From positions 620,001 to 684,000 of the forward strand of contig NC_020192.1 of the NCBI RefSeq assembly GCF_000315915.1: 64,000 nucleotides of DNA, read 5' to 3'. The notes under the pieces were generated by a model. The model was not told the origin of the DNA, ran no database searches, and saw only the letters and a list, made by a program, of their open reading frames with translations. Shown one piece after another: positions 2,921 to 63,185 of the stretch; position 1 is the first letter of the stretch, and each line of letters begins with the position of its first letter. The translations under genes and the position numbers were made by a program. This stretch comes from Henningerozyma blattae CBS 6284. Its lineage: Eukaryota > Ascomycota > Saccharomycetes > Saccharomycetales > Saccharomycetaceae.

Positions 2921-3313
2921 TGAACCATGATCTATAGATACTTATCCTTCTATATTCTATAGTACTAGTTATACATATATATATATATATATAATAACCT
3001 GTTATTCCTACATATTCATAAAAAAAAGGTGGCTAGACGTTTTCTTAAAGAGGATTATGCTAAATCTATAATGTATTACTGAATCGTCATGAAGATCGAA
3101 CAATTACATTGTACGGGTAACTCATCGCCTTTAAAGTTTGGTAGATCTCTTATTGACGCGTTATTTTGAATTACTTCACAATACGCGTAAAAAAGTTCAT
3201 AGCTTAAAAAAAAAATTGAAAAATGAAGTAGTTGGGAAAAGGTAGTAAAATAAGAAGAGTAATAGCAAGAAAAGCGTTTGAATCATACAAATCATAAGAA
3301 ATAAAGCTCCCAA
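2921..3313. other. Intergenic region with PRI2 promoter
   Basis: Holds a (TA)n run at about 2972-2992 just after the upstream gene, the two MCB boxes, and a purine-rich leader before the PRI2 start. No other gene is seen. Confidence 0.6.
3156..3188 (+). promoter_or_regulatory. Two MCB boxes upstream of PRI2
   Basis: ACGCGT occurs at 3156-3161 and 3183-3188, 158 and 131 bp before the PRI2 ATG. ACGCGT is the MluI cell-cycle box bound by MBF (Mbp1/Swi6), which drives G1/S transcription of replication genes including primase subunits. Two copies within 33 bp in AT-rich DNA are unlikely by chance. Confidence 0.75.
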
Positions 3314-4801
3314 ATGTTCAGACAAAATAAAAGACGGTTAACTTCTCGTCGTAATTTTCAAGATCAGTATTCAAACAATTCAATCAAACATGAATTAACA
3401 AATGATTCTTCAATATCGAAACTTAATTTTTACAATATAGCCCCCACACAAGAAATAACCCTTGATAATTTTGAAATATGGGCCATTGACAGACTCAAAG
3501 TTTTAATCGAAATTGAAACGATGTTAAGTAGATCCAAAAATATCCGTGATATTGAAACTTCTGTCAAACCTATTCTAAATAAATATTTACCAATGAACAC
3601 GGCTGAAGATCAAGAAAAGGATTATTACTCACATTTTATCTTACGATTATGTTTCTGTAGATCCAAAGAATTGCGTGCTCGATTTATTAATACAGAAACA
3701 ATTTTATTTAAATTACGTTATAACATGCTAACATCCAGTGAACAGACTAAATTTGTGGAAGATTTACAATTAGATAGTTTGAAATATATTTCTGATGATG
3801 AGAAAAATGAATTTTCCACTGAATTATACTCTATGATCTCTCCACTTTTAACATTCCAATTGAATCTAACAGATGAAAATTCTAAAAGATTGTTTTTCCA
3901 AAACGAAAAATTCATTAAATTGCCATTTGAAAACGTTACAGAGTTATTGAGTAATCGACAAGTATTTTTGCATAAAGGTTGGGCATATATCGGACAATTT
4001 CAACAATTAAACCTATTGACTAATGAATTTTCTCAAAAATTAGAAACATCATTATTGAAGACATATTCTATTCTACCGAAACTGAATGAAGATGATAGAT
4101 TATTACCGATTATCCAACACCTGTCCTCTGGTTATAATTTAAGTGATCTAAGTATTGGCAGTTCATATTTATCCGGTAATGCTACTGGAGAAGGTGAAAT
4201 TACAAGTGACATGATTTATGATAAAGAAATGATGAAAAATTATCCACTCAGTGTTCTCAATCTATTGGAAGGACTTCGTGAAAATCATCATTTGCGTTAC
4301 AATGGTAGACAACAATTAGGCATGTTTCTTAAAGGTATTGGGTTATCCGTGGATGAGGCATTGAAATTTTGGGCCAATGAATTTGTTTATGCACCAGGAG
4401 CTCATATGACTTTGGACAAGTTTAATAAAGAATATAGATATAACATACGTCATACGTATGGTTTGGAAGGTAACCGAATCAATTATAAACCGTGGGATTT
4501 CCGTACTATACTAAGCAAACCTCGACCTGCAAGGGGTGAATATCATGGTTGCCCATATCGTGATTGGAGTCATGAAAAATTAACAAGTTATTTGAAAACC
4601 AAGATGGGATTGTCTTTAAGCCAAATAAATCAAGTAATGGAATCTGTAGAACAACAAGAATATGCAATGGCATCCACAAAAGTGTTTGAGATGACCATTG
4701 GCAAACTGCCAGAGGGAGTTACACACATCGTACATCCAAATCAATACTTTGATCTAGCTCGTGCTATCCATAAGAGGCAATCTAATGCTAATGATGCTTA
4801 A
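3314..4801 (+). CDS. PRI2: DNA primase large subunit Pri2, with Fe-S ligands lost
   Basis: A 495-residue homologue of Pri2 (PriL/p58), the regulatory subunit of the polymerase alpha-primase complex that starts Okazaki fragments. It begins MFRQNKRR like the S. cerevisiae protein, and blocks such as DYYSHFILRLCFCRSKELR, KFIKLPFENV, NHHLRYNGRQQL, LFLKGIGLS-like and YGLEGNRINYKPWD are conserved. Length is close to the family norm (about 528 in S. cerevisiae). Oddity: of the four cysteines that bind the 4Fe-4S cluster (family pattern YPLC, PWDC/PFSC, YHGC, ACTKVFEM), this protein has Ser313 (codon 4250-4252, AGT), Phe396 (4499-4501, TTC), Cys413 (4550-4552, TGC) and Ser454 (4673-4675, TCC). The frame is otherwise intact and two MCB boxes lie upstream, so it looks expressed. 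It may be a divergent paralogue with an intact copy elsewhere. Confidence 0.95.
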   Translation: MFRQNKRRLTSRRNFQDQYSNNSIKHELTNDSSISKLNFYNIAPTQEITLDNFEIWAIDRLKVLIEIETMLSRSKNIRDIETSVKPILNKYLPMNTAEDQEKDYYSHFILRLCFCRSKELRARFINTETILFKLRYNMLTSSEQTKFVEDLQLDSLKYISDDEKNEFSTELYSMISPLLTFQLNLTDENSKRLFFQNEKFIKLPFENVTELLSNRQVFLHKGWAYIGQFQQLNLLTNEFSQKLETSLLKTYSILPKLNEDDRLLPIIQHLSSGYNLSDLSIGSSYLSGNATGEGEITSDMIYDKEMMKNYPLSVLNLLEGLRENHHLRYNGRQQLGMFLKGIGLSVDEALKFWANEFVYAPGAHMTLDKFNKEYRYNIRHTYGLEGNRINYKPWDFRTILSKPRPARGEYHGCPYRDWSHEKLTSYLKTKMGLSLSQINQVMESVEQQEYAMASTKVFEMTIGKLPEGVTHIVHPNQYFDLARAIHKRQSNANDA

Positions 4802-25863: not shown

Positions 25864-25931
25864 TTAGTAGAACCCTCTTGATGCTTGAGAAGCGTAATCG
25901 TAACCATTGAACCCGTATGGAACTCCTTGTT

Positions 25932-25962
<31 letters not shown>

Positions 25963-28446
25963 TTGTTGTTGTTGTTGTTGTTGCTGTTGTTGGAATTGAT
26001 AGTACTGTTGGAATTGGGCTTGTTGTGGGTTCATTGGTTGTTGATCATTTGTATGTTGAGATTGCTGAGCTTGTACTTGACCTTGTTGATCTTCATTAGT
26101 ATGTTGAGATGGAGATTGAGCTTGTTGGGATTGAGCTTGTTGAGATTGAGCTTGTTGCAATTGTTGGTTTGCTTGAGCTTGACCGTAACCTGCGTAACCT
26201 GCGTAACCACCTTTTGGTACTTGGTAAGGATATTGACCAGCCATACCATATTGTGGTTGAGCGTATGGGAAAGATTGTTGGTAGAAGTGACCGTAGTATG
26301 GCATGAAAGAACCGTTATATTGAGGTTGACCCAATTGACCAGCATTTTGAGTGGATTGTTGTTGTTGTTGTTGTTGAGTGGATTGTTGAGTAGATTGTTG
26401 TTGAGTTTGGATATGTGAAGGAGCAGGGGAGGAAGAAGTTAAATCGGTCTTTGCAGTGGAAGATTGATCATAACGTTGTTGTAATTTATAAGGATCAGAA
26501 GTCATGTTACCGGTTGCAGAGATGTTGGCGGCAGCAGCAGCCATGGATTGAGATGGTTGTTGATATTGTTGAGAGTAACCAAATGTTTGAGAATCATACA
26601 TACCTGGGTAAGAATAGCCTGGGAATTGGTTTTGATACATATAATATTGTTGTTGGGCCACTGCAGCAGCATTAGCAGGAGAGTTTGTAGAATTGATGGA
26701 GGAGTTGGCGACTTGTGGGGATTGAGAATATTGTTGAGCCAAGTATTGTTGTTGAGCTTGTTGAGCTTGGGCTTGAGCTTGAGCTTGAGCTTGAGCTTGA
26801 GCTTGAGCTTGTTGTTGAGCTTGGATTTGAGCTTGTTGTTGAGCTTGTAATTGAGCTTGTTGTTGGTTATAATATTGGGATTGAGTGGATTTTGCTTGAG
26901 CTTGTTGTTGTTGAACTTGTTGAACTTGTGGAATTTGTTCAATTTGTTCTGGGGCTACAGGAATATCAGTTTCCACTGGTTTTTGTTTAACAGTCTTTTC
27001 AGTTTCAGCAGGGGTAGCGACGGGGGAAGATTCTTGTTTTTCAGTCTTTTCTGGTTCAGCATCTTGTTCTTCTTCATCTTCTTCTGAGCTTTCTTCTTCA
27101 GAGGATTCCTCGGATGAGTCTTCTTCAGAACTTTCTTCTTCGGAGGATTCTTCTTCAGAGGATTCTTCATCTTCGTCTTCTTCAGAAGAGACTTCTTGTT
27201 TGAGTTCAGTTTCCTTTGCGGCGGCAGCAGCTGGAGTTTCAGTTTCTATTGGGACTTCAGTTTCTGGAGCAGCAACGGCAGCATTGGATTCTTCAGTTTC
27301 TTGTACAGACAACTTTTCTAGAGAAGATTTCAATTCATTAGTTTCAGTTGTTGTTGTAGAAGGTTTCTTTTTAACAATTTTTGGTTTTGGAGTCGCAATG
27401 GCGGCCCACGACATTTTCTTTGTAGTAGTAGTGGCAGAAGCAGAAGCAGAAGCAGAAGCAGAAGCAGAAGCAGAAGTAGTGGCAGAAGCAGTGGCAGCAG
27501 CAGCGGCTGGAGCGTTTGTGGATGCAGTGGGTAAAGATTCTGGAGTTTTTGTTGACAAAGAAGGTTGTTGAGACACAGAAGGTTGTTGGTGCTTGGCGGA
27601 AGGTAATGATTTTTCCACAGGTTTCTGTTGTGTGTGTTTAATTTCTTTAGAACCGATGACAGAAGCCCACGAAGTTGTGTGGGATACTATTTTGGAAGGG
27701 CCTGTGGAATGCTTCAAGTTTTCTGATTTGATGATATGTTTTGTGGAGGAATGAACGTTTGTTTTGTTGTTTGGAGTGGCGGTGCTGGTGCTGGTGATGG
27801 TGCTATTGCTCTTTAATTTTTCTTTATCCAGTAAATCATCAGCTTGAGGATCTTGAGGTTCTGCAGGCTGTAAAGCGGCAGAGGCGGGAGTATCTTGCGG
27901 ATCCCTTTGGGTATCCTGCTGCTGTGTATGCGAGGTAGTCTTGTGGTCCTTTTTGGCAGTGCGAGGTTGATGAGGATGGGCATGGTCCTGTTGTGGGTGA
28001 GTATTTGTACTGGTTGCTGTAGAATTATTATGCTGTGACGGAGATGAATTTGTATGAGTATTGCTATTAATGTGGATATGCTGTTTATTGTTGTTGGATG
28101 AGTCGTGTTTTGACGAATCGTGCTGTGACAAATGTTGTTGTTGTTCCAATTGTTGTTGTAATAACAGTTGTTCTTTTCTCTCTTGTCTTTCCTTCTTGGA
28201 AGGTTTTTTGACTTCGTCCCATTTGGTGACGGAACCTGAAGTGATCTTGTCGATTATCGTTTCCAAATCGTCATATTCTTGTACCAAATCAATCAAATCG
28301 TCGTTGGTCCAATCGGGGAACAGTTCGGTTAGTGTGTTTAGTTTTGATTTTATGGCAGGAGAGAGTTTTTTATTGCTGTTTGCCGACGATTGGGCTGTGT
28401 TACTGAATAGATTATGTGTGTTTGATCTCCTGAACTGTGAAGACAT
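25864..28446 (-). CDS. DEF1: RNA polymerase II degradation factor Def1
   Basis: An 860-residue homologue of Def1 (738 in S. cerevisiae), which recruits ubiquitin ligase to stalled RNA polymerase II after DNA damage. The CUE-like domain is near the N-terminus (about residues 27-70: [21 protein letters not shown], then [19 protein letters not shown]). The ATG at 28446 gives MSSQFRR and aligns with yeast; the longer upstream frame is Ser/Leu junk. Low-complexity blocks follow: Ser-Ala repeats, acidic Glu-Ser clusters (about 430-480), an (Ala-Gln)n minisatellite, and near the C-terminus a poly-Gln run joined to a run of 10 Ala. In S. cerevisiae the Gln-rich C-terminus is cut off by the proteasome to release the active form. 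Confidence 0.95.
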
Positions 28447-45604: not shown

Positions 45605-48600
45605 TGTGAATGATATATATATATATATAATACTACTAATGCTTATACAATTATAATAATACTTTAATACTATACATCATTTGAAAAATCCAATTCTTTT
45701 TTTTTTTTAATTCAAATATGCAGGATTTTCTCTGTAAATTAAGCATACACGAGGGTGTTGTGTTCTTATTTCGATTATCAAACAAACTCCGAAAACTGTT
45801 ATTAAAAGTTATATACATAATTTAATAAGGTAAGTTGAACGAAATAGTATATTTAAATATTCTATTCTTAAAAAAAACGACAAAAAATAAAAAAGCAATA
45901 TCAATTCGTCATTGGAATTTTTATAAGAAAACAATTCTTTGTAAGGTATTTTAATTAAAAAAAAATCAAGAATTTTAAAAAAGGGAAACTAATAACTTCT
46001 TATCCAAAGGGTTAGTGAGTTATTATTACTTCAATTTTAAATGTGAAGAATTATTTCAACGTGGTTGGTAAAAATTAAAAAAACCCGCTTATTTTACCTT
46101 TTTTGTAGAATTTCATTCATACTTGACTGTCATCGATGATGTTACCACATTTGGGCATCTATTGATAACGTGAGTGTACGTTAAATTTCTGTATTATACC
46201 GGAATAAGTATAGCCATTGATCTATGTTTAAAGTACAAAGCTCCAATACAAATACGAATACCTGAAATTCTTATCAACTTTTTATCGATTATTTTATTAT
46301 ATATTTTTTCCATAACGTTGTAACCTTCTTTTTTTTTTTTTTTACTTTCTTGGGAGATAGTCATATAATTGAATCATCCATCATTATGTAAAGATGTATC
46401 ATTGATTATTTCTCCAATTATTGATAAGTTTGTTTGTTTTCCAAAAAAGGATGTATATTCCTATTGCTCCATTCTTTAGTTTAGAGATACTACTGGTAGA
46501 TGTATTTACCTAACAACAAACCATTTGCTTAAGATAAATTCTTGTTTGTTTTCTCAAAGTGAGAAAAGTGCAGCATTTTCATGGTCTGCACACTTTATAT
46601 AAACCTCGAACTCATCTTTACTTGTTACGTTTCAAAAAAAAGGAAAAAGTCTCATTTTTAAGTCCTTCGATATATTTTTTAATTGTTGTTTGTTTGTTTG
46701 TTTGTTTTTATGTGTAAATTTATTTATGACCATCAATTTCGTCATTAATAAAATAACAATACTAATGTCTCTGAATGTTTTATTTCTGAAGAAAAAGTAT
46801 CTACACAAATATTATTAAATTATGTTTTAATTGCTTCTTGGAAGTGTCTTGTAAATTATTTTTTTTTAACCAATTTAAATTTTATTCTTGTCCTTATATT
46901 TTAATCTTATATTTTTCAAGCTCTATCCAAAGAGATTCTTACTCGTTGATTATTCGACTGTCTTTAAATGGATGTTTACAAATTGCAACTTCTGATATCG
47001 TAGCAATTACTTGAAGTTTTAATTATTTAGAAAAATAAATTATTTCTTTTTTGACGAATTTGGACTATGATAAAGTATGATTTTCTGTAAATAGCATTAG
47101 TTAGAAAGGAAATATAACTAGCATAACTGCATAAGAACTAAATACTTGAGTTAAATGAATACATTAACTTCTATCATTAAATATCATTCTACCAATATGA
47201 CTAAGAATTATAGTAATAAAATACTTTTCAAGCTTTATATATCCAAAAGAATACTGTAATGTTGTTGAATTTAGTTGAATCAAAGAAAAGCTTTCAATAT
47301 CACCAGCTCAGCTGTCTATTTAAAAACTATTTCTAGTAAAAATAATTGAAACGACTCAGAGTTATAACTCCTAGTTCTTGTGCTAAAATGCTAACAACTT
47401 CTCATTTCAAAACCCAAGTAGAAGAACACTCTTGAGAACTATACAAATAACAAAGTGTTTAAAGATACTAGCTTTACTATTTTTGTATAATTAGTTTATA
47501 GATAGATTATTGTGTTTTTGAAACTAAATTCAGAAATGTTTTAAGATTAAAATCAGACATACTTGTTTAAAGATGGAATGAAATTGCTAACAGCATCATA
47601 CTTCAAAGGTTTATAAAATAGTGAAATGTATTAATGGTAATTTATATAAGAAAAAATTGTTGATAAAATAAAGTATGGCTATCTCACGTTAGCGCATAAA
47701 CTTAATCCAAACGTAAAATATATCATCATTAATTAAAGAAGAAATTAACAAGAAGATAGTGGTATAATGTTATCGAGAACACAAATTTGTTGAATCCTAT
47801 ACTTCTTTGTCTAACCGTTCAATGTAAAATGTAGATAGATGATTTAGTGAAGTAACATGTGTTTTAGATGACGTGTATAAATATTAGAAGTTGAAAAAAG
47901 TGGCATCAGTTAATGATTCCTTGTAAAAAAAATTATTATATGTTTTTATGTGGTCTGCTAACTGAAATGTTTTACTCAGAATAAGTTAGCAGAATAGCAA
48001 TATGGAAGGAAAAAGTTTGCCATCGAAGTTATTTGTATTAGTATATCTCACAGAAGAGACTCTATACTTTGGGGTTTGAAGTGATCAGAAGTAAGAAACG
48101 CAACTTTGTTTAAACAGAAACCTTGTAAAATGATTAGCATTTTGACTTGCTATTTCTTTGGAATAATTTATTGAACCTCTAAAAGTAAATTTTCTAATGA
48201 TGCTAATAATAAATGAGTTTTATGCTTAAAAAATATTAAATTTATCTTGGGATAGTTTGAGTTGTAGTGTCAGAATAAATTTTGGTTTCAGAGAAGTAGC
48301 TAATGGATTAATAGAAAATAAAAATAAGAAGTCAAGAAAAAATTAAAAAATAAGCAATTAAAAGGTAAGTAGCATTTAATTGATTAGTTTCTAACTCCCA
48401 AGATTTTATCATGTAAGGTACTATATATTCGTATCTTACTCTCAATTTTCAGATGGCTGGTGAGAAATAATAATACCAAGTGATATTTATTTACCACTAA
48501 ATAAAAGAAGTAGGAGGGTATTACTTTATCACATTTCGGTATCCACCCCAGTAATACTTCAGCCACCAAGCTAGGATATTAGAGCTATATATTTCAGTAA

Positions 48601-48753
48601 ATCCTTTTATATATCCTTTTATTGTTGCATGGGCCAATATATCCTTATGCTAGGGAAAAAAAGTAATGCAAAATGCTATTAGCTCTATTAATATTCAGCA
48701 GTAATTATATTTCCGCTTTTCCTTTTACCTTTGTGTCTCAAGTTGAAGTTAAC
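45605..48753. other. Gene desert, left part
   Basis: About 3.1 kb of AT-rich sequence without a convincing frame. It holds homopolymer runs and a (TTTG)n stretch near 46684-46706. Earlier transposon parts may be present but are not recognisable. Confidence 0.5.
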
Positions 48754-51190
48754 GGTCTAATAATAGAGGAGACGATGAGAGACTTGGTAAATCGGAAGAT
48801 AATAGAAGAAGCAGCAAGCTGTTATTACTAGAAAGAAAGATTAGTAATAAAATATGCAGAAGTAAAACAATAATAAAGTCAGATGGCATACAGAGTGGTG
48901 ATAAAATTAGAAGGCCCCGTAAATTGAGGGATGTAAGATAGGTCAGACAGAATGGTAACAGAAGAGGGTGTAATAGCAGAGCAACCAAGTAGTAAAAGAG
49001 AAAATAAGATAAAATAAATAAAAGCGTAATAGAATATGTTTAGAAGAAATTCAACAGGAACACAAACCAAAGACAATAATAGAACTGGTAAATAGCTATA
49101 ATTATATTCTTATGCTTATTAAAATACATTTTATCATGTGACTGCATTTTCTGCACATTTTTCAGGTAAAGCCAATGATATTATTTAAGAATCCCATTTG
49201 AAAAAATAAGATATATTTGTATAGTTTAAAAAATAATCGACTTATTATCCTGAAAACTGTACCTTATAATATCTAGCTCTCTTATCTTAAAGTAAAAACT
49301 CGCAATAGCTTTTTGCCTTATATTTTGAGACGGTTATAACTCAACACTCGGAGAAAAAAATCCTATTACTTATACACACTAATATAAGCACCGGAACATG
49401 AAAACAAGATAACTGCATCTAAATTCATGGATGTGTTGATTGCAAATGGAATAGGATTCTCAGAAAAGAAGCTTCAATTCAATGAAGGAGTCAAATTTTT
49501 AAAGTTTAGGATTGCCGTAGAAGGAGTTAGAAGCTACTGGATTGAAGTTATTAGGGGCTTACTTATACCAAATACAAGTAAAAGTACCAAAATTTTATTT
49601 GGAATGGCGTATTTCTTACGTATCTTTTGTCCCTAGGCATAGTGGAAGTTTATTAAAGATATGAGAGACAGCTGCGAAATACACTAAAAAAAAGAAGAAA
49701 GGAAAGATCGATATTACAGAAGAGATAATAGAAGAATTTGAAAGCTTTAATGGTGTGTTGCAAATGGACTTATAGCTCTTAGTATATAATATCTATATGA
49801 ACATATTTTGAGTATATGGTTCTAGAGTAGAGAATACAATGGGTTGGTCCCTGGGCTATCCAGATATCAGATATATCAGCAGGAACATAGAGAAAAGGCA
49901 CCAATACAACTATATAAAAAAAGGGTTAAAATTACTGGTCACTGAATTAGATTTAAGGCCAGTAGTAGAAGTATGAATATCTAACTCTACAGAAGGCTAG
50001 ATTCGCCGTAATAGAAAAGTATGAAAGAATCCCTATTAATGTAGAAATACGGTTACTAAATGCAGTAAAAGAAGTGGATCTTTATAGAAGGGCACATTAA
50101 GCTACGACATATGAATTCAAAGAAAATAGATGGAAGCAGATTAACAAGGAATAGAGATTGATTAAGCAGCTCAGATAAAGATTATAAGCTCGTACTCTTG
50201 GTAATATGGTACGGATATACATGACCTCATTATCATGGAGGGATCAGCAAAAATATACAAACTGTGAGTGTTAGATATTGAAATTTTTTGCACATAGCAA
50301 AGCATGTTACCAAGGTCATAATTTCCCACCAAGTATGTCAAACAAATAAAGTGGAAAACTACCCCGAAGCATTATGTATTTATTTGTCTAAGCTGCATAT
50401 ACAGGTTTACGAAGAACCTATCACTGGTTTGATTAGCAGCCCTAAAGACTATAATGGTTGACAACTTATTTAGGAGACACAGATATTCAGTGGTAACAAA
50501 TACAGATTATTCACGATAGTACTAAGCGATCTAAGTTTAATATTCAAGGGTATATATAAGCATATTTTAAATTTTTGCACGATGAGCATATCACCGCCTC
50601 GGTTAGGCATGACCAATCCAATGAAGCAAATAAGAGAGCAAATATTTTAGCGTTAGTCAGGCATTTCTAAGTGTATAAGTAAATGGCCGACAATTATTCA
50701 CAGAATGTTTATATTTAGTAGAAAAGTTCCTCAAAAATAGATACAATAGTATGGTAAAAATGTCGTCACATTAGCTAAATTGGGCAAGATATGTAGACAA
50801 AATAGCCAGAGGATGGTGGATAAATCTAGAGTTTAAAGAAGGAATATTCACAGACGAGTGGTGTCAGTATCATCAATCGATATGCAGGCTACTACGAGAA
50901 AAAATAAATGATCAAAGTAATTTGACGGGGAAATATTCTATATAAATCATTGGTCTATACATGAATTTGAAACTGGTAGAATGGTGTTAGTCCTTAGGGA
51001 AGCATTCAAGAAGCATGGTTCCGCATTGTTGTGAGCATAATTACAGGAGTTAGGAATAGGCATGGGAAATTTCCACGAAACATCTTACCCAGTTAATTTA
51101 ATCATAGAAGATCTAAAACATTGAAATAAGTGACAGAACGTTGAAAAGAGTAATACCGCATATAAAAAGTGCTATAGACTTGAAAAAATT
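48754..51190 (+). mobile_element. Decayed Ty3/gypsy retrotransposon (pol relic)
   Basis: Broken plus-strand frames keep family landmarks of a Ty3/gypsy pol gene in the right order and spacing. Reverse transcriptase start at about 48775-48835 (LVNRKIIEEAAS, the ELLxKGIIEPS-like block). Reverse transcriptase end at about 49388-49636 (PEHENKITASKFMDVLI, then VKFLKFRIAVEGV and FGMAYFLRIFCP). Integrase zinc-binding region at about 50231-50380 (HYHGGISKN, then IAKHVTK and VCQTNKVENYP). Then PITGL at about 50421-50435, at the start of the core, and a degraded integrase core near 50610-50670. There are many stops and frameshifts and the YxDD site is destroyed, so it is dead. I do not find clear long terminal repeats. 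Confidence 0.75.
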
Positions 51191-54100
51191 AAATGAACAA
51201 AAAAAAAAAAAAAAAAAAATAAAGTTAATTAAAACAATCGAAGAGAATCGAAGAGAATCTTGTTACCAAATTGGATAAAATATTTTGTAGAGTGATAAAT
51301 GAATAGCGAATGAAAAAGAAAAGTTTATAAGGAAAAATGTTACTAATAGAAGATGATCAGTATTGTCTCTTTTTAATCAAGCTAGAAAATTTATCATATC
51401 ATAAAGTTTAGGTCATAGACACACACGTATTACTTACTTGATGTTTATTTTATACCCCTAAGGATTGTACCTCTGAGTTTTACTATGAGTTGGTCCGGTT
51501 TCTTGCACAGGTTGTAGTGTGTATTTTTACCTCATATTTGATTTTATATAGTTATGCTGAATACTTAAAAAGATTTTTAGCCAGTATATTCAAAATCATA
51601 TACATAGGTGGACTATATATGTAGGCCTTTTTAATATATGGATAGTACTATATTGTTAAAAAATGTGATACCCCGTTGTAGGAAGTTACATATTGTAGTC
51701 CACTAGTATCTTTTTGATGATAGTTACTTTTACTTATGCCTTTCAATACTTCCTATTTAGTGATATAAATGGCACATATTGTTTTATATTCTCTTGGATT
51801 GAAAATTTACAGCTAAGCAGAATAGCCTATTGTCTAACTTCACTTAAATATATAATAATAGTAGCATTTAATTCATTATTCGAGTTATCAATAGAAGCAT
51901 CATATATCAGTTTTCGATTCAAATTTTTCGTGAGAGTAATATAGTTTCCATGCTCTAAATACTACAAAAAAGAGTTAGTTTTTTTACTGCCAATTGTTAC
52001 ATACATCGTGTGTTTCATTCTAAGTTGTACCTTTCAATTCTCTTGCTAATAAAAATAGAGTTTGTAAAATAGAGTTGTGTTGATTTATTTGATAAAACAC
52101 GATTAATATTTTTAAACTATGAAAAAAATTGTTTATTAGCTTAGATTCTGAGTGGCGATAAAATTAATACTGCAGAAATACTTTACTAATATAATTGAAT
52201 AAAATGTTACTAAATTTGCATTTCAATACAGTTTTAATACAGCGCTTTCTGGACTATTCAAGAAGTCTCTTTGGCAAATAAGTAAGAAATGACAGTATCT
52301 ATAGAAAATATATAACAGAGGAAATATCTGCAAGAAAATATATAACAGAGGAAATATCTGCAAGAAAATATGGTATCAATGGGAACTTTACTATTTTTTT
52401 TATATTAAATTAGTATATCAAACGGAATTGGAATTCACTAGAGTTTCTAACAAGAAGGGAAATGAGGCCAAAATCAAACTAAGGATGTATTTACCAACTC
52501 TTTTTGGGGTATTTACTTGTATATACCCTAAGTCCCGATAAACTACTCTATATCTCAGAAGAGTATTTGAGCATTAATAAAAAAATTTAAAAATTTAAAT
52601 GGAATCCTAATTAAGATAATACGATAATGATAAACTACACAGCTAAAATATCACTGAAGATTAATTATGTTTCCCTTTTCACAACTCTAAAAGAATACTA
52701 ATATGGGTACATAAACTTGGGAAGGCTTAGCCTGTAAATTAGGGTCTTGAAAAAAATCACTCTTCTTGAGTCAGCAATAAAATATGAGATTAATCACAGT
52801 TGATAAAAATAATAATTATGATCCTGAAGTTCAGTGAATATGTACTTTTGAATTTAGAAATTGCTTTTAGAAAAGCATCCAAAAGCTCTAAATACTTATG
52901 AATTATGATAACCAATATATGAAATACTATGAGTAGAAATACTAAATCAAAAAAAATATAACGTCATCAATTATTTATAAATATGATACAAAACTAAAGT
53001 TAACAACATAAAAATATTAGTAAGTTTGAGAAAAGAACTGTTATATCAAACACAAAAGCTAATCGAGTAGAAATACTAGTAAAAATTGAATCTACTTTCA
53101 ATTTTTCTGTAAGCTCATGATATCTATTCATAGTGAAAGATATTCACAAATTTATCTGAGGCAATTTTAGAGACTCCATAATATTCAACTAATGATTTAT
53201 TATCGTAGCAATAATCAAAGCTTAGAAAATACAACTAACTTTTAGAACTAGCATATTATGATTTAACTGAAGCTTTATCGAATATTAAGAAAATAGAGTC
53301 CAAACTAGAAATAATCTAAACTAAAACCACAAGTCTTTCAAACTGCATTTAATAATACATACAAGTTCGAAACAAAAATATATTATCATAATTATATAGA
53401 TATGTTAGCTAAGCTAATGTTAATACAAAATAAACTTAATTTATATATTGGTCCCACTGACAGGGGAAAAAAAGAAAATTTATCTCAAAAATAATTCAGA
53501 TTCCAGAATTTCAACAATAGTCTTACTCTTATTTTAGAATTTTATATAAAGTTTACAAATATTAATCTTGTGCAAATAGCTTAGGGTAATTTTAGAGTAG
53601 TCTTTGTCATACGAAAAATAAAATAAATGCCACCAGGATAATGAGAAATTTTTTGAAAAGAAAAATATGAAATACTTCAGGTAATAGACACCTTAGAGAA
53701 GGCAAGAGAATGAATGAACAGATAATGGAAATTACTTGAATAATCCTATATAGAGACTTTATAATAAAAAGGTCAAAAGTGGCTTATTCCAAGAGGTACT
53801 GGAAGTGGAAAAAATATCTGTATACTCGAGTAGAGAGTTAATTTTAGATGAAGGTAATTCTCAAAAGATTTGTGGCGGTAAATTTTAAATTAGGTAACTA
53901 GTTTTATGTAAGAAAAGGCCATGAAAAATGAGATATAGTAATTAATGATAAAAGTAATTGACACTCTATTTACAAAAGGGGGAATGTAATAGTATGTATT
54001 TTGGCATTGAAAAGATGGGAATATAACGAAGTTGAGGCTAGTTATGTAGGGAGTACCAAAATAGGTTTGTTACTGTAAAAAATTTTGGAAGAAAGTATAT

Positions 54101-56059
54101 TTTGAATTCCTTAAAGAACATTTCTCTCCCCCACTAAAATATTTTATTTCTATCTGTTCATAATAGTATTCTGGAAATCTGTGCTGTATATTAAGTCTAT
54201 AAAGCTAATTATTGGGCTTTTTACGGCAAAATATAGAAACGATAATAAAAAACAGATCTGGCAAATATACAATGATTAGCTCTTTTACGCTCATTACTAA
54301 AGATCTTTAACTGATCATAGTTACAGATGTTTATAGATATCTGGTTGTTCTGATATTTTTATATACCCAACTTAAATGTACCACTTGAACTACTACTAAT
54401 TACTTTAACTTTTATTTTTTCTACACATAAAACTCTATATGACTGTATCACCTTCATTGACATATTTAAAACACTCTTTATTTTTATTTAATGTATTATT
54501 CTGTATATTTCATATCTCAGCATTTTTTTTTCCATTATCAACTACATTATTCATTGTTGAGCAGCTGCAACGTTTTGTTTCATTAATAATATCTTTAAAT
54601 AAACTCCTATGAAAACGTTATATTTTATGGCTAAAATAGAATAGCAAAGAATAAAATTATCCATGTTCAGGTATATAAAATATATTTTACTGGGATTTGA
54701 AAGTAAGTGTAGCAGCACGTTTTTTGGAATAATATATGCACATATATAGCTGAAATGTGTAAAAGCAAGCAATAATTATCGATACAAAATCACGATAGAT
54801 TGTAATTCAATAGCAGGTAGTAACACAAAATAACTATCTAGAAGATTTATATATTGTTGGCATTTAAATTTCAAGAAAGCAGAAGTAGTGGTGGTAGTGG
54901 TGGTAAAAGGAAGCAAAGAGGATATAATGTGGGAAACATTAAAATTACTTAAGAATAGTGGGAAATAATAGTTTTAGGAGTGGGGGTACCTCGAATAATA
55001 TATAAGTGAATACTAATAGTTCAAGTTAAATAGAAAAGAGATAAATATAGAAGGATAAAAAAGAGTAATTTGAGTCTCGTTTTGCGGTAGATCCTAGAAG
55101 AAACTGATTTTGATAGCTCATTAGAAAGTAAGTATAATTTTGATATATCTGCAAAAGAAGGATGCAGCATTTCTATACAAAACAAGTAGCCACATAGCAT
55201 TTTATATGTTTAGGAAATTTTCTTTAATCCTATTGTCTCGTAATAAAGACAAAAAAAGATGATATTTAATTAGTTCTTTCCCTTTTAATAAGTGTACGTT
55301 TTTGTAGATTCTGATCCTAATATTGTGTATCTCTCCAAGTAGTTAATCCTTATTTCAATGTATATAAATTTTTCTCACTTATTTTTGATAGAAAATAATA
55401 TAATAATTTTCTAATTATTTCGTAAAAAGAAATTTTTATTATTTAATTTTCACATGCCTGTTTTGTGGTTCATAATTAAGGTATTAGTTAAATAAGGGAA
55501 ATGTTCTTTAGAGTTAAAGAACATTTATCAATGGAGCTTGTTTTAGCTTACTATATAAAGAGCATATTTTGTAAATAAATATAGATGTTTATAGAGTATG
55601 TAAGAGAAGTAATCCAAAATTACATAAAAATTTACTGGGATTCAAGAGAGTTAGACATTGTTATACAGTGTTTAATATGTAAAGACGATTACTTTATTTA
55701 GAAATATATAGTAAATACTATAACTAAAGTGAATATATTTCTTAAATAATGTTTTTCGATATAAAAAGAAAAACACATTTTAAATAATAAGTCACGTGAT
55801 AAAAGTCTTCTACCATTTAATAGAAAATGATATAATCATATTCCAGCACATTCTTGCTAATAGATGTCCGAGATGAACCAGAAGTGGGTGCAGATCCAGT
55901 GGTTACAGTTGATGTTCCACGCCTGCTGAATAGTTGTTTCTCAGCTGTGGTCAGCTGATCTGTCCTCTCTCGAGGCTTCTCTTGTACTGATTTCTTGTAA
56001 GTGTTACGTGAAAGGCGACGGCGCTTAGACGGTTTTGCAACAAAAAACAACAATTTTGG
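51191..56059. other. Gene desert, middle part
   Basis: AT-rich decayed sequence. A long A tract is at 51200-51220. A possible retrotransposon end (polypurine AAAAGGGGGA followed by TGTAATAG) lies near 53977-53995. A more GC-balanced stretch at about 55850-56050, just before the tRNA, has an open minus-strand frame of about 75 basic codons that I cannot assign. Confidence 0.45.
52303..52370 (+). repeat. Perfect 30-bp tandem duplication
   Basis: A 30-bp unit starting AGAAAATATATAACAGAGG occurs twice without mismatch (52303-52332, 52333-52362), with 8 further bases of a third copy. Recent, since the DNA around it is decayed. Confidence 0.9.
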
Positions 56060-56133
56060 GGTTCCTTGGCCCAGTTGGTTAAGGCATCGTGCTAATAACG
56101 CGGGGATCAGCGGTTCGATCCCGCTAGGAACCA
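56060..56133 (+). tRNA. tRNA-Ile (anticodon AAU)
   Basis: A 74-nt tRNA gene without intron. The acceptor stem GGTTCCT pairs with AGGAACC (56126-56132) and the discriminator base is A133. The A box is TGGCCCAGTTGG and the B box GGTTCGATCCC. The anticodon AAT is at 56094-56096 in the loop CTAATAA. It is nearly identical to S. cerevisiae tRNA-Ile(AAU); the paired changes in the acceptor stem keep pairing. It is the only intact gene in the desert. Confidence 0.98.
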
Positions 56134-56134
56134 C

Positions 56135-56140
56135 TTTTTT
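56135..56140 (+). terminator. RNA polymerase III terminator of tRNA-Ile
   Basis: A run of six T two bases after the mature tRNA 3' end, the usual polymerase III stop signal. Confidence 0.9.
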
Positions 56141-56234
56141 AGTAATGTCATGTAGTGTGAGCTATTTTAGTCACGTGTATAAACCAAGATCACGTGATAA
56201 CGGAATGAACATGTAGATTAACAAGTAAGTGAAT

Positions 56235-56340
56235 CATGAACATAAATTCTATTTAAGAATCTAAAGCTAAAAGAATAAACTAGACAGTTAAGGTAGAACA
56301 AAGAGGTAAGAACCAGAAAACAAAAAGGACGAGATACAAA
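56235..56340 (+). repeat. Left arm of a perfect 106-bp inverted repeat
   Basis: The 106 bases here are exactly the reverse complement of 57052-57157. Imperfect similarity continues outward to about 56200 and inward to about 56389, so the arm is about 190 bp in all. The arms are about 0.7 kb apart and resemble solo long terminal repeats or the ends of a foldback element near a tRNA gene. Confidence 0.95.
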
Positions 56341-57051
56341 AAAGATAAAAATATATAGTGAACAAATCGGAACGTAATATAATAATATTTAACTTACATA
56401 GGCTCAGGTATATAGTTGTATAGTTTAATAAACCGTTGGTATTAAACTAGCAGCCAAAAAGATATACTACTGGGACTAGCAAAGCTTAAAATTGTTACAA
56501 GTAAAAATGTTGACATCACGTGATTAAATATTATATTATGTAGGGCTTACTACAGTGGATATTAGGTTTAGCGGGTATAAACTGTTACCCGGGGTGTCAC
56601 TTATTAGGATGTAATGATCAATAATTTCTTATTGATCCGGTATATAACTATTGCTCTATTTATTTCACTAGTTAATCAATTGTTCGTTGTCCCTCTTGAA
56701 CATCAAGAAGATCCTTCGTCGACCTATAGTCGCCTCTTATATACCTTTACTCATTGGTGGCCCAACCAATACATCCCGAACCGATTAGCTCCCAGTTACT
56801 CCTGGACTCACGTTTGCAACCGTTCGTCCACTACTAGGGTAAGTAGACACCTAGGTTATAGCCCCTTGTATTCTTTTAATAAAGACACGTAGCTAGTTAA
56901 TCTGTAACCACTGGTTGCAATGCGTCCCACTTGTGGCTGGCCGTTCAACAAGTCACGTGATTACCTCAAGCCCATGCGAAGACTTGGTAATCCCTCCAGG
57001 ATCCCTACATATTATTACATTCCGATTTGATCACTATATATTTTTATCTTG

Positions 57052-57157
57052 TTTGTATCTCGTCCTTTTTGTTTTCTGGTTCTTACCTCTTTGTTCTACC
57101 TTAACTGTCTAGTTTATTCTTTTAGCTTTAGATTCTTAAATAGAATTTATGTTCATG
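57052..57157 (-). repeat. Right arm of a perfect 106-bp inverted repeat
   Basis: Exact reverse complement of 56235-56340, with weaker similarity from about 57009 to 57195. Between the arms lies a stretch of higher GC content (about 56690-57000) holding a TATATAAG on the minus strand near 56740 and a perfect palindrome GATCAATAA/TTATTGATC at 56617-56638, but no recognisable gene. Confidence 0.95.
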
Positions 57158-57195
57158 AATCATTTACTTGTTGATTCACATGTTCATCTCGTTAT

Positions 57196-60100
57196 TACCT
57201 GACCTCTATATATACATGATATCCCATAGCTGAAATAATTCACTTATAAATTGTGATACATAGACTATAAATATGTAACAGTATTGGTGTAATACAGATC
57301 TTAATAGTCTAAATTTAAACAAAGAAAGATTTACAGATCAATAGGTAATATTAATTAGTTCTAACTAATTGCTACCTGCAATTGCCATGTAATACCTTTT
57401 TAGTTTTGAATCTCAGAGTGCCATAAAGTTAACATGGTAAGCCGAGTGATAACTACAAGCTTACTACAAACCAATTATTTCAAACAATAGTATTTTAGTA
57501 TCTAAGAGTTTTATAGAGGTAATTAAGGTATAAGAATTGTAGGTGATGTAACTGAATTAGTTTATCTGATATTTTTAGAATAACATAAGAGTATAATATG
57601 CATGCAATATAACTAATAAAACTCTCAGTTAGGTAATCCATGGATTATGAAATTCAAAATTAAAGTATTCTTATGGGTAATAAGCTTCTATGACTAATCA
57701 TACTCTTGTTAACAATCTGATCAGGCAAACTAAGTGTTGAATTACTAAGAGGTATCTATGATCTAATTTTACTATTAAAAACAATAATTATTCTCCAAAT
57801 ATGTCGAAATCTAACGATGCTACAACTTATAACTCCGATAGATATTGATAAAATATAAAGGAATGCTTCTAAAGGAATATTTCCCAACTTTCCATTTGCC
57901 GCTTAACGGTTGACCTAAGGAGCTTCCGAACTGTGTGGCAGCTCAGATGAAAATGAAAAGCTAGTTAAATATATAAGTAAAGACTACCGATAGACTCACT
58001 AATAATTTCTGTCAGAACTTAAAGTTGTAAGTTGTTTTTATAAATGGGTTCCTTTTATACTCCGAGGTTATTGAGTCCAGATTATTTACTAATTCTGATA
58101 CAACTAGAATTATATGAATCTCTAATACAAGCACGCTAAGTTAGCATTATGAAGATAAGTTAGTTATTAAGTTAACTGGTTAAAAATGGTGTTTGAATAA
58201 ATAAACCTATTATTTTCACAGCATGTTATTATTTATAAATGTGCGTTTTATTCCGGTTGTTCATTTTTAAATAACTATATTATATATTAATGCAAAAATG
58301 TTACAAAAAATTCTAATAAACTATGTGCTCGTCTTTTATACTCGGGCAATCTAACATAGTATATATAATCTTGGAGCTAGAATTGACTTTTTTACTATTT
58401 TTTGTTTGTATACAGACAAGTACCTCTCATAAAATCTTACAAGAATACCAATGGGGCTTTGTTCAGGTAGGATATGAGCTGGGATAGTAATCTGGTACCA
58501 ATTTTTATAAATGTTCCTATCTAATTTTTGTTGTACTAAATAAATATAATCATTTAAAAACAAGTCTACACAGGCTTGAAGTCGTAAAAAACAATATGAA
58601 TTATTTTTTTTTCTTGCAAGGTAGAGATCTCCATTTAACTATTAGTATTATCAATTAGTAAGTTAGGACCTATTATAGTTTGAAATGTAATTATAAAGAT
58701 GAAAACTAAGTTCTACTCCTTTTCATTTAGGGCCAATGAAGTTAGATTACTTCTGAGTTAGAATAAAAGGCATAAGTAGTAAAGCCGAATCAGTTTAATC
58801 TATCACCACCTTAAATTACGAGTTAATACTTTTATAATTGACATTTGTTACTTAATGTAAGAACATTTAATTGTTTATCTTTAATTGTTTATCAAAGTGG
58901 CTCCTATAAAATAAAAAATGCGTTAGTATTGATCAATAAGCTTTGACACTACAAACCATAAACTCCAGTTAATTAGAATATAACCAGCATTGTAATTAAT
59001 AATCCTACAAGTTGTGACCAACAATTGGTATATTAGGTAGAATTATGATATTTGAAACTTGTGTAACATAACCAACGAATTAGAATTTAATTATAAAAAT
59101 ATAGACTAATCATGTATGATTTATAAAGGTTCATTGTTACGTATTTTTAAAAGCTTAGAAGACTAGGTGAAGTTCAGTATGACTATTTGTAATGGTGAGT
59201 TGAAAGTTAACATTAAATTTCTTTTGGAAAATATTTTTCTAAATGAGAGAAATATTGTATTAAAGGTGTTTTTAGTTTGTATAGCCTACAGTGTGTAAAG
59301 CCCTAGTAAGAATTAAATGATAAGTAAACCCAAGTATTATTCTACTCTAATATATATTCTGTATTATACTTGATACCAGGATGGTGGGTACTTATAATGA
59401 ACTTTTATCATGAGAAATTTTAGAATTTCTTTGAAGCTCTGCTTACGGTTATCTGTACTAAAAGTAAATACAAAAAAATTCAACGTCCATGTTGAGAATC
59501 AACTAGTATTCTACTATAGTAATTAAATTCTAATAGGTATTATGCTAGGTTTGTCATTGAATATAAAACTCTATTTAACGTTAATAATTTCACCTATTTC
59601 TCATAAAAGATTTAAAAAATGTATACAAAATACTTCTTAAGTTACCTTTTAAGTCCAATATGTAATATTTTGCACCTTTTAGGATGTTTATAAAACCCCC
59701 TTAAATTGGTAAAATTAATATACTCTTTACCTATGGCATTGATATCAATACAAGAATACTTAACTTTGAAGATCATGACTTCAATAATGTCGTGGTATTA
59801 AGTAAAAGTTTTGTGCACAAGTGATGTTTTTTCTATTTAAAACGCCCTTAGGTTGACTATAAGCCTTCTACAGGGTCTTAATAAGTTTATATGCACCACG
59901 CTACACTACAATACAGAAAAATCGTCAGGTGTTTTATGCTAATAATAGCAACCCTAGAAAGTGTAAGAAATGAACTGCCTTGTTATTTAAGATGTAACTA
60001 CCCATCTTCCTATATTTTATATACAATATTCCATATCATAGTTTACACCTATCATCTGCAGCTCAGTTACTTTGAGCTTTTGGCATGATTTTCCAAGTTT

Positions 60101-62086
60101 AAATTTTATCTAAATGCTTATTTTAGATAATCCTCTTACTGTACGACATTAGAATTATTTGTATTGTCATTATTGTCAGTCATAATTTATAGAATAATTC
60201 TTTTTTTAGTGAACATTTTACAATATAGAAACCTCCTACTCTTTTGAGAAAGAAGTAAGAGGATATAAAATATATAAAATACATAAAATACAAGGATTAG
60301 GCGCCGAATAAGAGGTTGGAAATTTATACATGTTGTTCGGCATAGGAGAAGTCAATTCATTGTCGTCTATAGGTGGAACTTTTTTCACCTAGTTAACCTC
60401 ACAAGAGTCATATGTCTCTCATGCTTAATATATCTTGTAGTAGTTGGATGGTGTACTTCATTTGGTGGTAATGTGACCAGCGGTCGTACTATTCAAAATA
60501 TTGTTTGCTCATAGTTTAAATCTTAGTTAAGTAATCTGTTTGCATAATTATTATATTAATAGTATAAAAAAATCTCCTTACCTCTTTCGAAAGGGAATAT
60601 ATAACATATACAGGGTATACCATGAACAGTTATAAACTTTTGGGATATTCTCGTGGTAATTTATACTCCAAAAAATGGACAGATCCACCATCAACGAATT
60701 GATGGTCTGATATTAAAATAGAACCTATCACATCCTAATACCTTCTTAATATCACTGCTTGGGTATTTTTAGTAGTGACGCCACGTATGCTTAATGCATG
60801 TTGGATTATTTATTATATTAAGTTGTTATTAGTTGTTGTATAAACCTACAATTACGACTAAATTCATACTTTATTAGCTGTTAACACAAACCCACGACTT
60901 ATGACACATAATGCCACAGCTCTGACATAATGAATTATCCAATCGGGGTTTTTATTAGCACTGTTGCTTCGCATTTATTCTTTTTTGTCCTGGAACAGTA
61001 TATCTACTGCTTCATGTAGAAAGACCATAAATATCTAGCACTTGGTAGTTCTACCTACAAATAATTTTGATATTTGGTAATAACAATATTAAACACTTTT
61101 TTTCTAATCATATATTCGTATTTATTACACATAAATACTTCAAACTGCCTAAATCTCGATTTAAGATTATTTTTAGGTTAAAAACAAAGCATTTCGTTTC
61201 TAAGTAAAAAAATCTATAGGATTAAATAATATTAAATAATCAATTACAATAAAAGGGTTAAAACTAGTAGAGTTTTGCCAATTCTAAAAAAAGTTCTCTC
61301 ATAATTTTGAATATTACGTGATAGTAGTTTAGTTAGTTTCTTATAAATGTTCTCTTCCATAGTAAATGATTAAATTATAGGTAAAAAAACATTCTATTTC
61401 TACATAGAGCTGACATGGTCAGTTAATATTGTATATATCTCTCTTACTACATAGGATAGCTGATAGATATCAACCTAGCTCTAGTTCGATTAATAAATAC
61501 TACTATTACCAATTAGATTGGCTTTTTTATAATTAAAAACAAATATTACTGTAATGTGCTATGAAAACGTTAATAACTTCTATTAATAATATGTATTGCA
61601 TCAGAGTATTGGTTAAAACGCAATTTCATATAGAGAAAATGACAAGCACTAAAAGATATATTAATTATTATATGTTTGTATCAACATGATTTTTGATATA
61701 ATCGAATTCTACATATATTATTCATTAATAGATTAATCTATAACATTTTATGAAATACAAAGCTAGTTAACTAGAATTGTTATTTGTTAGTAATTATTAC
61801 CTTTCAATTTAATGCAATGTTTATTTTCAAACCCTAATTAACATACAGAGCACATAGGATAGAAGATCTGAAATATTTCATTACCTTAATTACGATAATG
61901 CTTCCCTTGGGTAAAAAAAAGTTGAGCAATATTCAGTTATTTGAAATCTATCACATATTTTTATTATAAGTTAATCATCTGAATCCATTTAGTAACGTCT
62001 TTCTTGCATTATGAAGTAGTTTATTCTACTTATATACCTTAGCCCAAATAATTTCACAAAATCTAGGTGTAAGGATGTGACTTTGT
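57196..62086. other. Gene desert, right part
   Basis: About 4.9 kb of AT-rich sequence. The longest frames are 65-70 codons and have no coding character. No RNA gene, long repeat or transposon relic is recognised. Confidence 0.5.
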
Positions 62087-62317
62087 GTCACATGGTGCTT
62101 AAATAATAGAATTTTCTAAATATATTAATATTTTAAAATATTACATTTTTAAACTAAAATAATAAAAATATTTAATATATATTTTAATAATATATTTATT
62201 ATATTGATTTTTACATTTATATAATATAAATTATGATATTCAAATTAATATAATATATCAATTAAAGGCGCACATTATAATATGATTTAAATTTATTAGT
62301 TCCGAACCAATTATATA
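62087..62317 (+). other. Point centromere (CDEI-CDEII-CDEIII), syntenic with CEN11
   Basis: CDEI: GTCACATG at 62087-62094, a full match to RTCACRTG (the Cbf1 site). CDEII: about 197 bp; 62101-62265 is about 95 percent A+T, followed by a short GGCGCAC interruption (62267-62273). CDEIII: TTTATTAGTTCCGAACCAA at about 62294-62312, which keeps the essential CCG and AA after it and agrees with the yeast consensus at 8 of the 12 positions before it. VPS1, the first gene beyond CEN11 in S. cerevisiae, ends about 0.9 kb to the right. CDEII is longer than in Saccharomyces (about 80 bp) and closer to Kluyveromyces (about 160). Sequence and synteny agree. Confidence 0.85.
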
Positions 62318-63185
62318 AGTTAAAAAAATAGATGTGAAAAATTAACAATTATTTGAATTGTGATTAAAATTGCAGGTAGTAAAGATATGGTATTCATTTC
62401 AAGCTTTATAGTGTTATTATTTTTAAATGGCTCATTTTTTTTACCGTGATAAATTTGTACTATGTTATAATACCGTGTAATATGCATTAACAGAAATATA
62501 TGGCAAAAATAAAATAATTACCGTATTCATTATGTATGTATATTCCAAATACTTCTTGTATCATTTTTCTTAGAAATAATAATAATAATAATCATTCAAT
62601 CTACAAAATTTGTCATGAAAGTTACTAAGGTTACAAAGGTAATCTGCCTACCAGCTATCTGCAACACATGTTATCTTCAATGTTTGAACTAAAATGTCCA
62701 GTATCATTTCCAATATTCTTTAATTCATATTTGCTGAAATATTCTCACAATTTATCTCATATATATAAGTATCTGTAAAATGTTTAAACAAAGAAAATAT
62801 TAGTTGAGCAGTTCAGTAGAAAAGCTTTAGATTAGAGGACTGGTAATTTTCTAGGCAATATGAGCGATTAATGTCACTTTCACCATAAAATATCTGAATA
62901 TCTGAATATCTGAAGACAGTTTCAAAAGCAAAGTTAGACGCCGAACGTATTGAATTATTTATTTCTAAATGTTATGCTAGAAACAGTTCTGGATAAAAAT
63001 TTGTAGATACAGAGGCTTTCTGTTACTAGAAGCATTAGTTATTGCTTGTGGTTATGACAATATTTCAAATAGTTTTCATGAAAACTGAGACATATGCAAA
63101 TATTTTTTTTGTTAATTCATTAAATCTGACTATATTCTAAATACATTTAAGAATGATGATATATACAGTTTTTAAATAAGAATAT
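62318..63185. other. Spacer between centromere and VPS1
   Basis: About 0.87 kb of AT-rich sequence. A short run of three ATCTGAAT-type repeats lies near 62890-62912. No gene is seen. Confidence 0.5.

Follow-up and report, generated by a model that had tools for sequence, protein, structure and literature searches.

A DNA primase large subunit lacking three of four iron–sulfur cluster ligands in Henningerozyma blattae, and apparently repeated ligand loss in related yeasts

The PRI2 locus of Henningerozyma blattae

The window, a stretch of 64,000 nucleotides of the Henningerozyma blattae CBS 6284 genome, carries PRI2, the gene for the large subunit of DNA primase (Table 1). The frame, which the first-pass annotation called intact, is translated without interruption. 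Residues 34–491 of the protein align with Saccharomyces cerevisiae Pri2 (PDB 8b9a_A) with an E-value of 5.2e-181, and residues 199–479 match the family profile PF04104 (DNA_primase_lrg) with an E-value of 4.7e-80 and 269.2 bits against a curated cut-off of 22.4, which places the protein in the family. Both Pri2 domains are predicted to fold as in solved Pri2, although AlphaFold was trained on cluster-bearing structures, so that a good model is no proof that the apo protein folds.

A [4Fe-4S] primase domain is recognized by four cysteines, and H. blattae Pri2 keeps one of the four. The first-pass annotation had reported Ser313, Phe396 and Ser454 in the place of three ligands and Cys413 as the last one left; alignment and codons agree with it, down to the residue numbering. 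It had also described the surrounding blocks as conserved, and the alignment is indeed gapless next to all four sites, which rules out an alignment slip. Each of the non-cysteine codons is one base away from a cysteine codon, at three separate sites in one gene. Cys413 is the single cysteine of residues 293–489, that is, of the C-terminal domain, and with the other three ligands missing this excludes substitute thiolate ligands.

Table 1. Features of PRI2 and its upstream region, in window coordinates (Sc, S. cerevisiae numbering)
Feature	Position	Strand	Remarks
PRI2, DNA primase large subunit	3314..4801	+	495 aa, uninterrupted frame (translation); only copy found
Pri2 C-terminal domain, residues 294–487	4193..4774	+	Counterpart of the yeast Fe-S domain 3lgb
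Ser313 (AGT), ligand site Sc Cys336	4250..4252	+	Alignment and codon
Phe396 (TTC), ligand site Sc Cys417	4499..4501	+	Alignment and codon
Cys413 (TGC), ligand site Sc Cys434	4550..4552	+	Sole ligand retained; alignment and codon
Ser454 (TCC), ligand site Sc Cys474	4673..4675	+	Alignment and codon
Ala451, cluster-shell site Sc Thr471	4664..4666	+	Alignment; shell residues as listed in part of PMC2852410
Arg332, equivalent of human Arg306, conserved	4307..4309	+	Alignment; primer 5'-triphosphate role as described in part of PMC5333051
MCB-like box ACGCGT	3156..3161	+	Upstream of PRI2
MCB-like box ACGCGT	3183..3188	+	Upstream of PRI2

The two upstream copies of ACGCGT, a motif that we take to be the MCB box, are present as first annotated. 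The window holds three such hexamers in total, which is within chance (mean 1.57; three reached in 23 of 100 shuffles). Two copies with a spacing of 27 bases ahead of a replication gene are nevertheless worthy of note and fit a cell-cycle promoter.

Two features elsewhere in the window deserve mention. Positions 45605–63185, about 17.6 kb, contain no ATG-started frame of more than 92 codons and look unusually gene-poor for a yeast chromosome; a tRNA-Ile at 56060–56134 is the sole Rfam match at gathering score in that interval. An open reading frame on the minus strand (25864–28446) is rich in short tandem repeats and matches the CUE domain marginally (21.4 bits, cut-off 21.1).

A second PRI2 was not found in the H. 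blattae assembly (14.04 Mb, ten contigs), where the protein search finds one place and the PF04104 profile, searched at E ≤ 1, also matches one place only. The cluster-free paralogue beside a normal copy that the first-pass annotation had offered as one alternative is thus absent from the assembly by either search. Pri1, the partner subunit, is present as one gene. A review credits Tetrapisispora blattae CBS 6284, the same strain, with a genome of 14.0 Mb on 10 chromosomes (PMC5499181, in part). As no other PRI2 is found, the ligand-poor Pri2 should be the working large subunit; in S. cerevisiae all four subunits of pol alpha-primase are reported to be essential (PMC4348247, in part).

Ligand Loss among Related Yeasts

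The alignment of PRI2 from relatives, which the first-pass annotation had proposed, reveals a wider loss than it reported. Two overlapping searches, from which the best 120 of 1432 and the best 120 of 864 matches were taken, give 139 Pri2 rows. All four cysteines are present in 119 of these, and the remaining 20 are short of one ligand or more. With the residues at Sc336/Sc417/Sc434/Sc474 written as a four-letter code, H. blattae Pri2 reads SFCS. Two of the 139 rows listed, Nakaseomyces bracarensis (DYLL) and P0137 (EYLI), have none of the four ligands. If P0137 belongs to a yeast in which CUG encodes serine, its leucine at Sc434 could be a serine.

Two trees were built: a careful one of 64 rows with the ligand columns left out, and a quicker one of 83 rows that includes Ascoidea. 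The 64-row set comprises 46 rows with four cysteines, 3 with three, 11 with two, 3 with one and 1 with none; outside it, P0127 keeps one ligand cysteine and P0137 keeps none. In the 64-row tree, H. blattae groups with P0048 (CYSD), also three ligands short, at a support of 99/97. N. bracarensis groups with P0015 (SCCC) and Naumovozyma dairenensis (CCCL) stands beside Naumovozyma castellii (CCCC), each at 100/100. Twelve rows that include Kazachstania africana and Huiozyma naganishii, a group that we call Kazachstania s.l., cluster at 94/98, and all of them lack the fourth cysteine. P0047 (CYCL) is unplaced in the 64-row tree but joins Kazachstania s.l. in the 83-row tree, where Ascoidea rubescens P0127 (EYCI) and P0137 form a separate pair outside the Saccharomycetaceae with an SH-aLRT of 96. 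H. blattae, presumably a post-duplication yeast that descends from the whole-genome duplication, lies with P0048 near the base of the family in both trees, a position that may be an artefact because the branch of P0048 is flagged as long.

A single clade of the 18 loss rows of the Saccharomycetaceae is rejected (p-AU 3.7e-5). Scored by parsimony as any loss, the character changes four times on the 64-row tree and five times on the 83-row tree with Ascoidea; parsimony counts changes and not their direction, which is read as loss because the other rows, outgroups included, keep all four cysteines. The ligands thus appear to have been lost several times independently, in about five lineages: Henningerozyma, Nakaseomyces, Naumovozyma, Kazachstania s.l. 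and Ascoidea. Within the open-licence literature, judged by titles and the openings of abstracts, no account was found of yeasts that have naturally lost the Pri2 cluster, although subscription journals may contain one.

Replacements at the Ligand and Shell Sites

The replacements are restricted, and their similarity suggests convergence. Within the 20 loss rows among the 139 listed, Sc417 is replaced in 8, only by Tyr or Phe, and Sc336 in 14, by Ser, Asp or Glu. Sc474 is replaced in 19 (Asn 11, Leu 4, Ile 2, Ser 1, Asp 1) and Sc434 in 4, by Tyr, Ser or Leu. The near-identical sets DYLL and EYLI occur in distant clades, those of N. bracarensis and P0137. An acidic residue at 336 appears to go together with an aromatic one at 417 (4/4 versus 4/16, Fisher p 0.014, uncorrected for kinship). 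One of the rows, P0024, has Tyr at the Cys434 site (CCYN); the C434Y change in S. cerevisiae Pri2 is reported to be lethal at 37 °C (PMC4348247, in part).

The ligand columns were also compared with others of similar conservation. Eighty-six columns are invariant in 41 other rows, and deviations at these were scored in 23 post-duplication rows, two of which (P0047 and P0048) are in the set on weak grounds. The two highest of the 86 are Sc474, which deviates in 17 of the 23 rows, and Sc336, with 12; Sc417 deviates in 6 and Sc434 in 3, against an average of 0.71 for the other 82 columns. On the tree, the four ligand columns change 19 times (6, 5, 3 and 5), whereas the other 82 change 0.39 times on average; a non-ligand column in the N-terminal part, Ser69, also changes 6 times. 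When four columns are drawn at random, not one of 200,000 draws reaches 19 changes, and 38 deviating rows come up at a rate of 2.5 per 100,000, a contrast that is partly conditioned on the losses themselves, as the 23-row set holds all 18 Saccharomycetaceae loss rows.

Part of the description of the S. cerevisiae crystal structure lists nine residues around the cluster (PMC2852410). Among the 18 loss rows, seven of these sites either do not vary or vary in a single row, but Sc471 (Thr) is replaced by Ala, Ile or Leu in 7 of the 18, against none of 46 keepers. Two shifts seen in most post-duplication rows lie close to the ligands: Sc337, beside the first, goes from Ala to mostly Val, Ile or Met, and Sc436, near the third, from Tyr to Phe. 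Phe436 is found in 14 of the 18 loss rows against 2 of 46 keepers, and also in Pri2 of S. cerevisiae, which keeps its cluster. The two shifts are suggestive of permissive changes that preceded the ligand losses and can be considered candidates for that role.

Constraint on the Rest of Pri2

The key residues around the initiating nucleotide and the template remain in place. Human His300, Arg302, Trp327, Tyr345 and Tyr347 are among the sites on this face. Roles for human Arg306, His303, Asn348 and His351 are described in part of PMC5333051, and for Lys314 in part of PMC8514734. The equivalents of human His300, Arg306, Lys314, Tyr345, Tyr347 and His351 are identical in 23/23 post-duplication rows, and in H. 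blattae, Arg332, Lys340 and His380 correspond to human Arg306, Lys314 and His351, as expected of a member of the family. Less fixed among the 23 rows are Trp327 (Phe in 4), Arg302 (Lys in 3) and Asn348 (Ser in 1).

The C-terminal domain (CTD) does not evolve faster relative to the N-terminal domain (NTD) in the loss rows. The median CTD/NTD distance ratio is 0.66 for the 18 loss rows, 0.71 for 29 others and 0.91 for the 5 post-duplication keepers, and no acceleration is seen by a Mann–Whitney test on these protein distances (p 0.13). The tip branch of H. blattae is shorter for the CTD (0.20) than for the NTD (0.59). Relaxed selection on the C-terminal domain was considered as an account and is unsupported by the protein rates.

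Tyrosines 395 and 397 of S. cerevisiae, which we take to be those with a proposed part in charge transfer, are invariant in 23/23 rows. Structures of mutants at both positions exist, being named in PDB titles. As the two tyrosines are kept even in the ligand-free N. bracarensis, their conservation is independent of the cluster.

Other Iron–Sulfur Proteins of H. blattae

Among the Fe-S proteins compared in H. blattae, the loss is specific to Pri2. The PF14260 profile matches two places in the genome, taken as Pol3 and Rev3, and PF06733 another two (Rad3 and Chl1). One place each is matched by PF08996 (Pol1), PF08696 (Dna2), PF08490 (Pol2), PF05093 (Dre2) and PF02906 (Nar1), and PF12460 has one match over its cut-off (Met18/MMS19) and two below. 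By eye, the cysteine motifs are intact in Pol1, Pol2, Pol3, Rev3, Dna2, Rad3, Chl1, Nar1 and Dre2; the motif positions and most of the gene assignments for these nine are presumed, while the identity of Pol3 (TBLA_0B07320) was confirmed by search. A general loss of Fe-S proteins or of the machinery that assembles them is rejected for H. blattae, given nine intact motifs and the presence of Met18/MMS19.

All eight CysA and CysB cysteines of Pol3 are present in 120/120 of the best Pol3 rows listed, a set that was not matched row by row to the Pri2 set and whose named members include K. africana, H. naganishii, N. castellii and Nakaseomyces glabratus but neither N. bracarensis nor N. dairenensis.

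Comparison with Known Primases

The H. blattae domain is 61% identical to the [4Fe-4S] domain of S. cerevisiae Pri2 (3lgb_B), and the whole protein is 56% identical to S. cerevisiae Pri2 (P0018). It shares the predicted fold and the NTP and template residues with 3lgb and human p58C, but differs from them in that three of the four ligands are replaced and the shell residue Thr471 has become Ala. In the S. cerevisiae structure, the cluster sits at the seam of the two helical C-terminal lobes, which it joins, behind a mostly hydrophobic shield (PMC2852410, in part).

The closest experimental counterpart is the S. cerevisiae mutant pri2(C336A,C417A,C474A), in which the identical three ligands are missing and Cys434 is kept. 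According to PMC4348247, the single C336A, C417A and C474A changes have no apparent effect on growth, and 55Fe binding is down by 90% in the C417A,C474A protein. The triple mutant goes through S phase at a normal pace at 23 °C but with less Pri2 and poor origin loading; it is sick at 30–37 °C and arrests at 37 °C. This laboratory mutant is unstable and temperature sensitive (PMC4348247, in part). The H. blattae protein is unlike it in being natural and fixed, in having Ser, Phe and Ser in the place of Ala and in its changed shell residue.

Two other relatives of the domain are more remote. PriX of Sulfolobus solfataricus is related to the PriL C-terminal domain and supports primer initiation, and the Fe-S cluster was concluded to be dispensable there (PMC5700102, in part). 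However, PriX is a third subunit beside a cluster-bearing PriL, whereas in H. blattae the single PriL itself has lost the ligands; the PF04104 profile, with one match in the genome, finds no separate cluster-free subunit of the PriX type. PriCT-1 and PriCT-2 are related to the N-terminal lobe of the PriL Fe-S domain (PMC5862659, in part), but they are mostly fused to primases of bacterial and archaeal mobile elements, unlike H. blattae Pri2, which is a eukaryotic replicative primase.

Origin and Consequences of the Ligand Loss

The best reading is that the primase cluster is a structural staple for which H. blattae has substituted ordinary side chains. Judged from its sequence, H. blattae Pri2 is very probably a working protein, the only copy found, that has lost the [4Fe-4S] cluster, holds the seam together by side chains and primes in the usual way. 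Of the alternatives first put forward, a yeast primase that works without the cluster is therefore the one supported. The lobe seam would be held by Phe396, Ser313, Ser454 and the altered shell residue Ala451, and since the NTP and template face is retained, priming should use the usual chemistry and mechanism without the cluster.

The ligands were probably lost one step at a time. As single ligand mutants of S. cerevisiae grow normally, a first ligand may go with little penalty; the others would then be free to change, and bulky or polar replacements would fill the hole left by the cluster. The sickness of the triple alanine mutant indicates that loss of the cluster is costly unless compensated. 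For H. blattae Pri2 we infer this compensation, along with the absence of metal, the packing of the seam, the order of the steps and the unchanged catalysis. A modified cluster may persist in loss rows that retain two or three cysteines.

Why the cluster was lost can be seen in more than one way. It is possible, though doubtful, that selection removed the cluster because it ties the start of replication to iron supply and oxidative state. Pri2 levels drop in low iron in S. cerevisiae, and the protein was proposed to be sensitive in a sod1 mutant (PMC4348247, in part); the repeated and site-specific nature of the loss would also fit. On the other hand, the retention of the Pol3 cysteines means that the iron dependence of replication was not removed as a whole.

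Rather less likely is an uncompensated erosion, in which slightly harmful losses were fixed by drift and a weak large subunit is tolerated. The silent single mutants and the viability of the triple mutant at 23 °C in S. cerevisiae (PMC4348247, in part) speak for such tolerance, as does the divergence of Pri2 in H. blattae and P0048, but the domain is not accelerated, the initiation-site residues are fixed and the restricted, repeated and convergent replacements would be left unexplained.

There is little chance that Cys413, together with residues other than cysteine (the two serines, for instance), still binds an altered cluster or another metal. Serine and other residues can, in rare cases, ligate Fe-S clusters (PMC11941123, in part), and the partial-loss rows with two or three cysteines may be intermediates with modified clusters. 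However, Phe396 is unable to ligate, the H. blattae domain has one cysteine in all, N. bracarensis has none of the four ligands and, in S. cerevisiae, losing two already abolishes most of the iron binding (PMC4348247, in part).

The last two explanations are very unlikely. That the gene is a second copy, either decaying or neofunctional, with a normal PRI2 elsewhere is conceivable in a lineage that we take to descend from a whole-genome duplication, but is highly improbable with one Pri2 by both protein and profile search of the assembly. An assembly or sequencing error is hardly credible, as it would have to produce one-base departures at three separate codons of one gene, while P0048 is also three ligands short and the same sites are changed in other lineages.

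More widely, it is likely that budding yeasts discarded the primase [4Fe-4S] cluster about five times and converged on a similar substitute core, which, from the aligned residues, would consist of an acid or Ser at 336, an aromatic residue at 417 and Asn, Leu or Ile at 474. Such yeasts would prime without primase iron or a redox switch, and Tyr395 and Tyr397 would be conserved for another cause, most likely template binding.

The primase cluster has long been regarded as indispensable. A review presents it as conserved between archaea and eukaryotes and required for full activity, and also gives the proposal that it acts as a redox switch operated by DNA charge transport (PMC8514734, in part). 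A redox role was argued to be unlikely on the basis of the archaeal PriX, with the concession that eukaryotes may differ (PMC5700102, in part). Species whose sole primase cannot hold the cluster allow natural enzymes to be compared directly on this point, and the ligand-loss yeasts put to the test, in nature, whether the cluster serves as a switch or just as a structural staple. Their Pri2 proteins also show which side chains can replace a [4Fe-4S] cluster in the interior of a protein, and they lead one to ask why the cysteine motifs of Pol delta were retained when primase was released from iron. If the reading is true, a eukaryotic cell can prime its chromosomes without primase iron, and hence without a primase redox switch.
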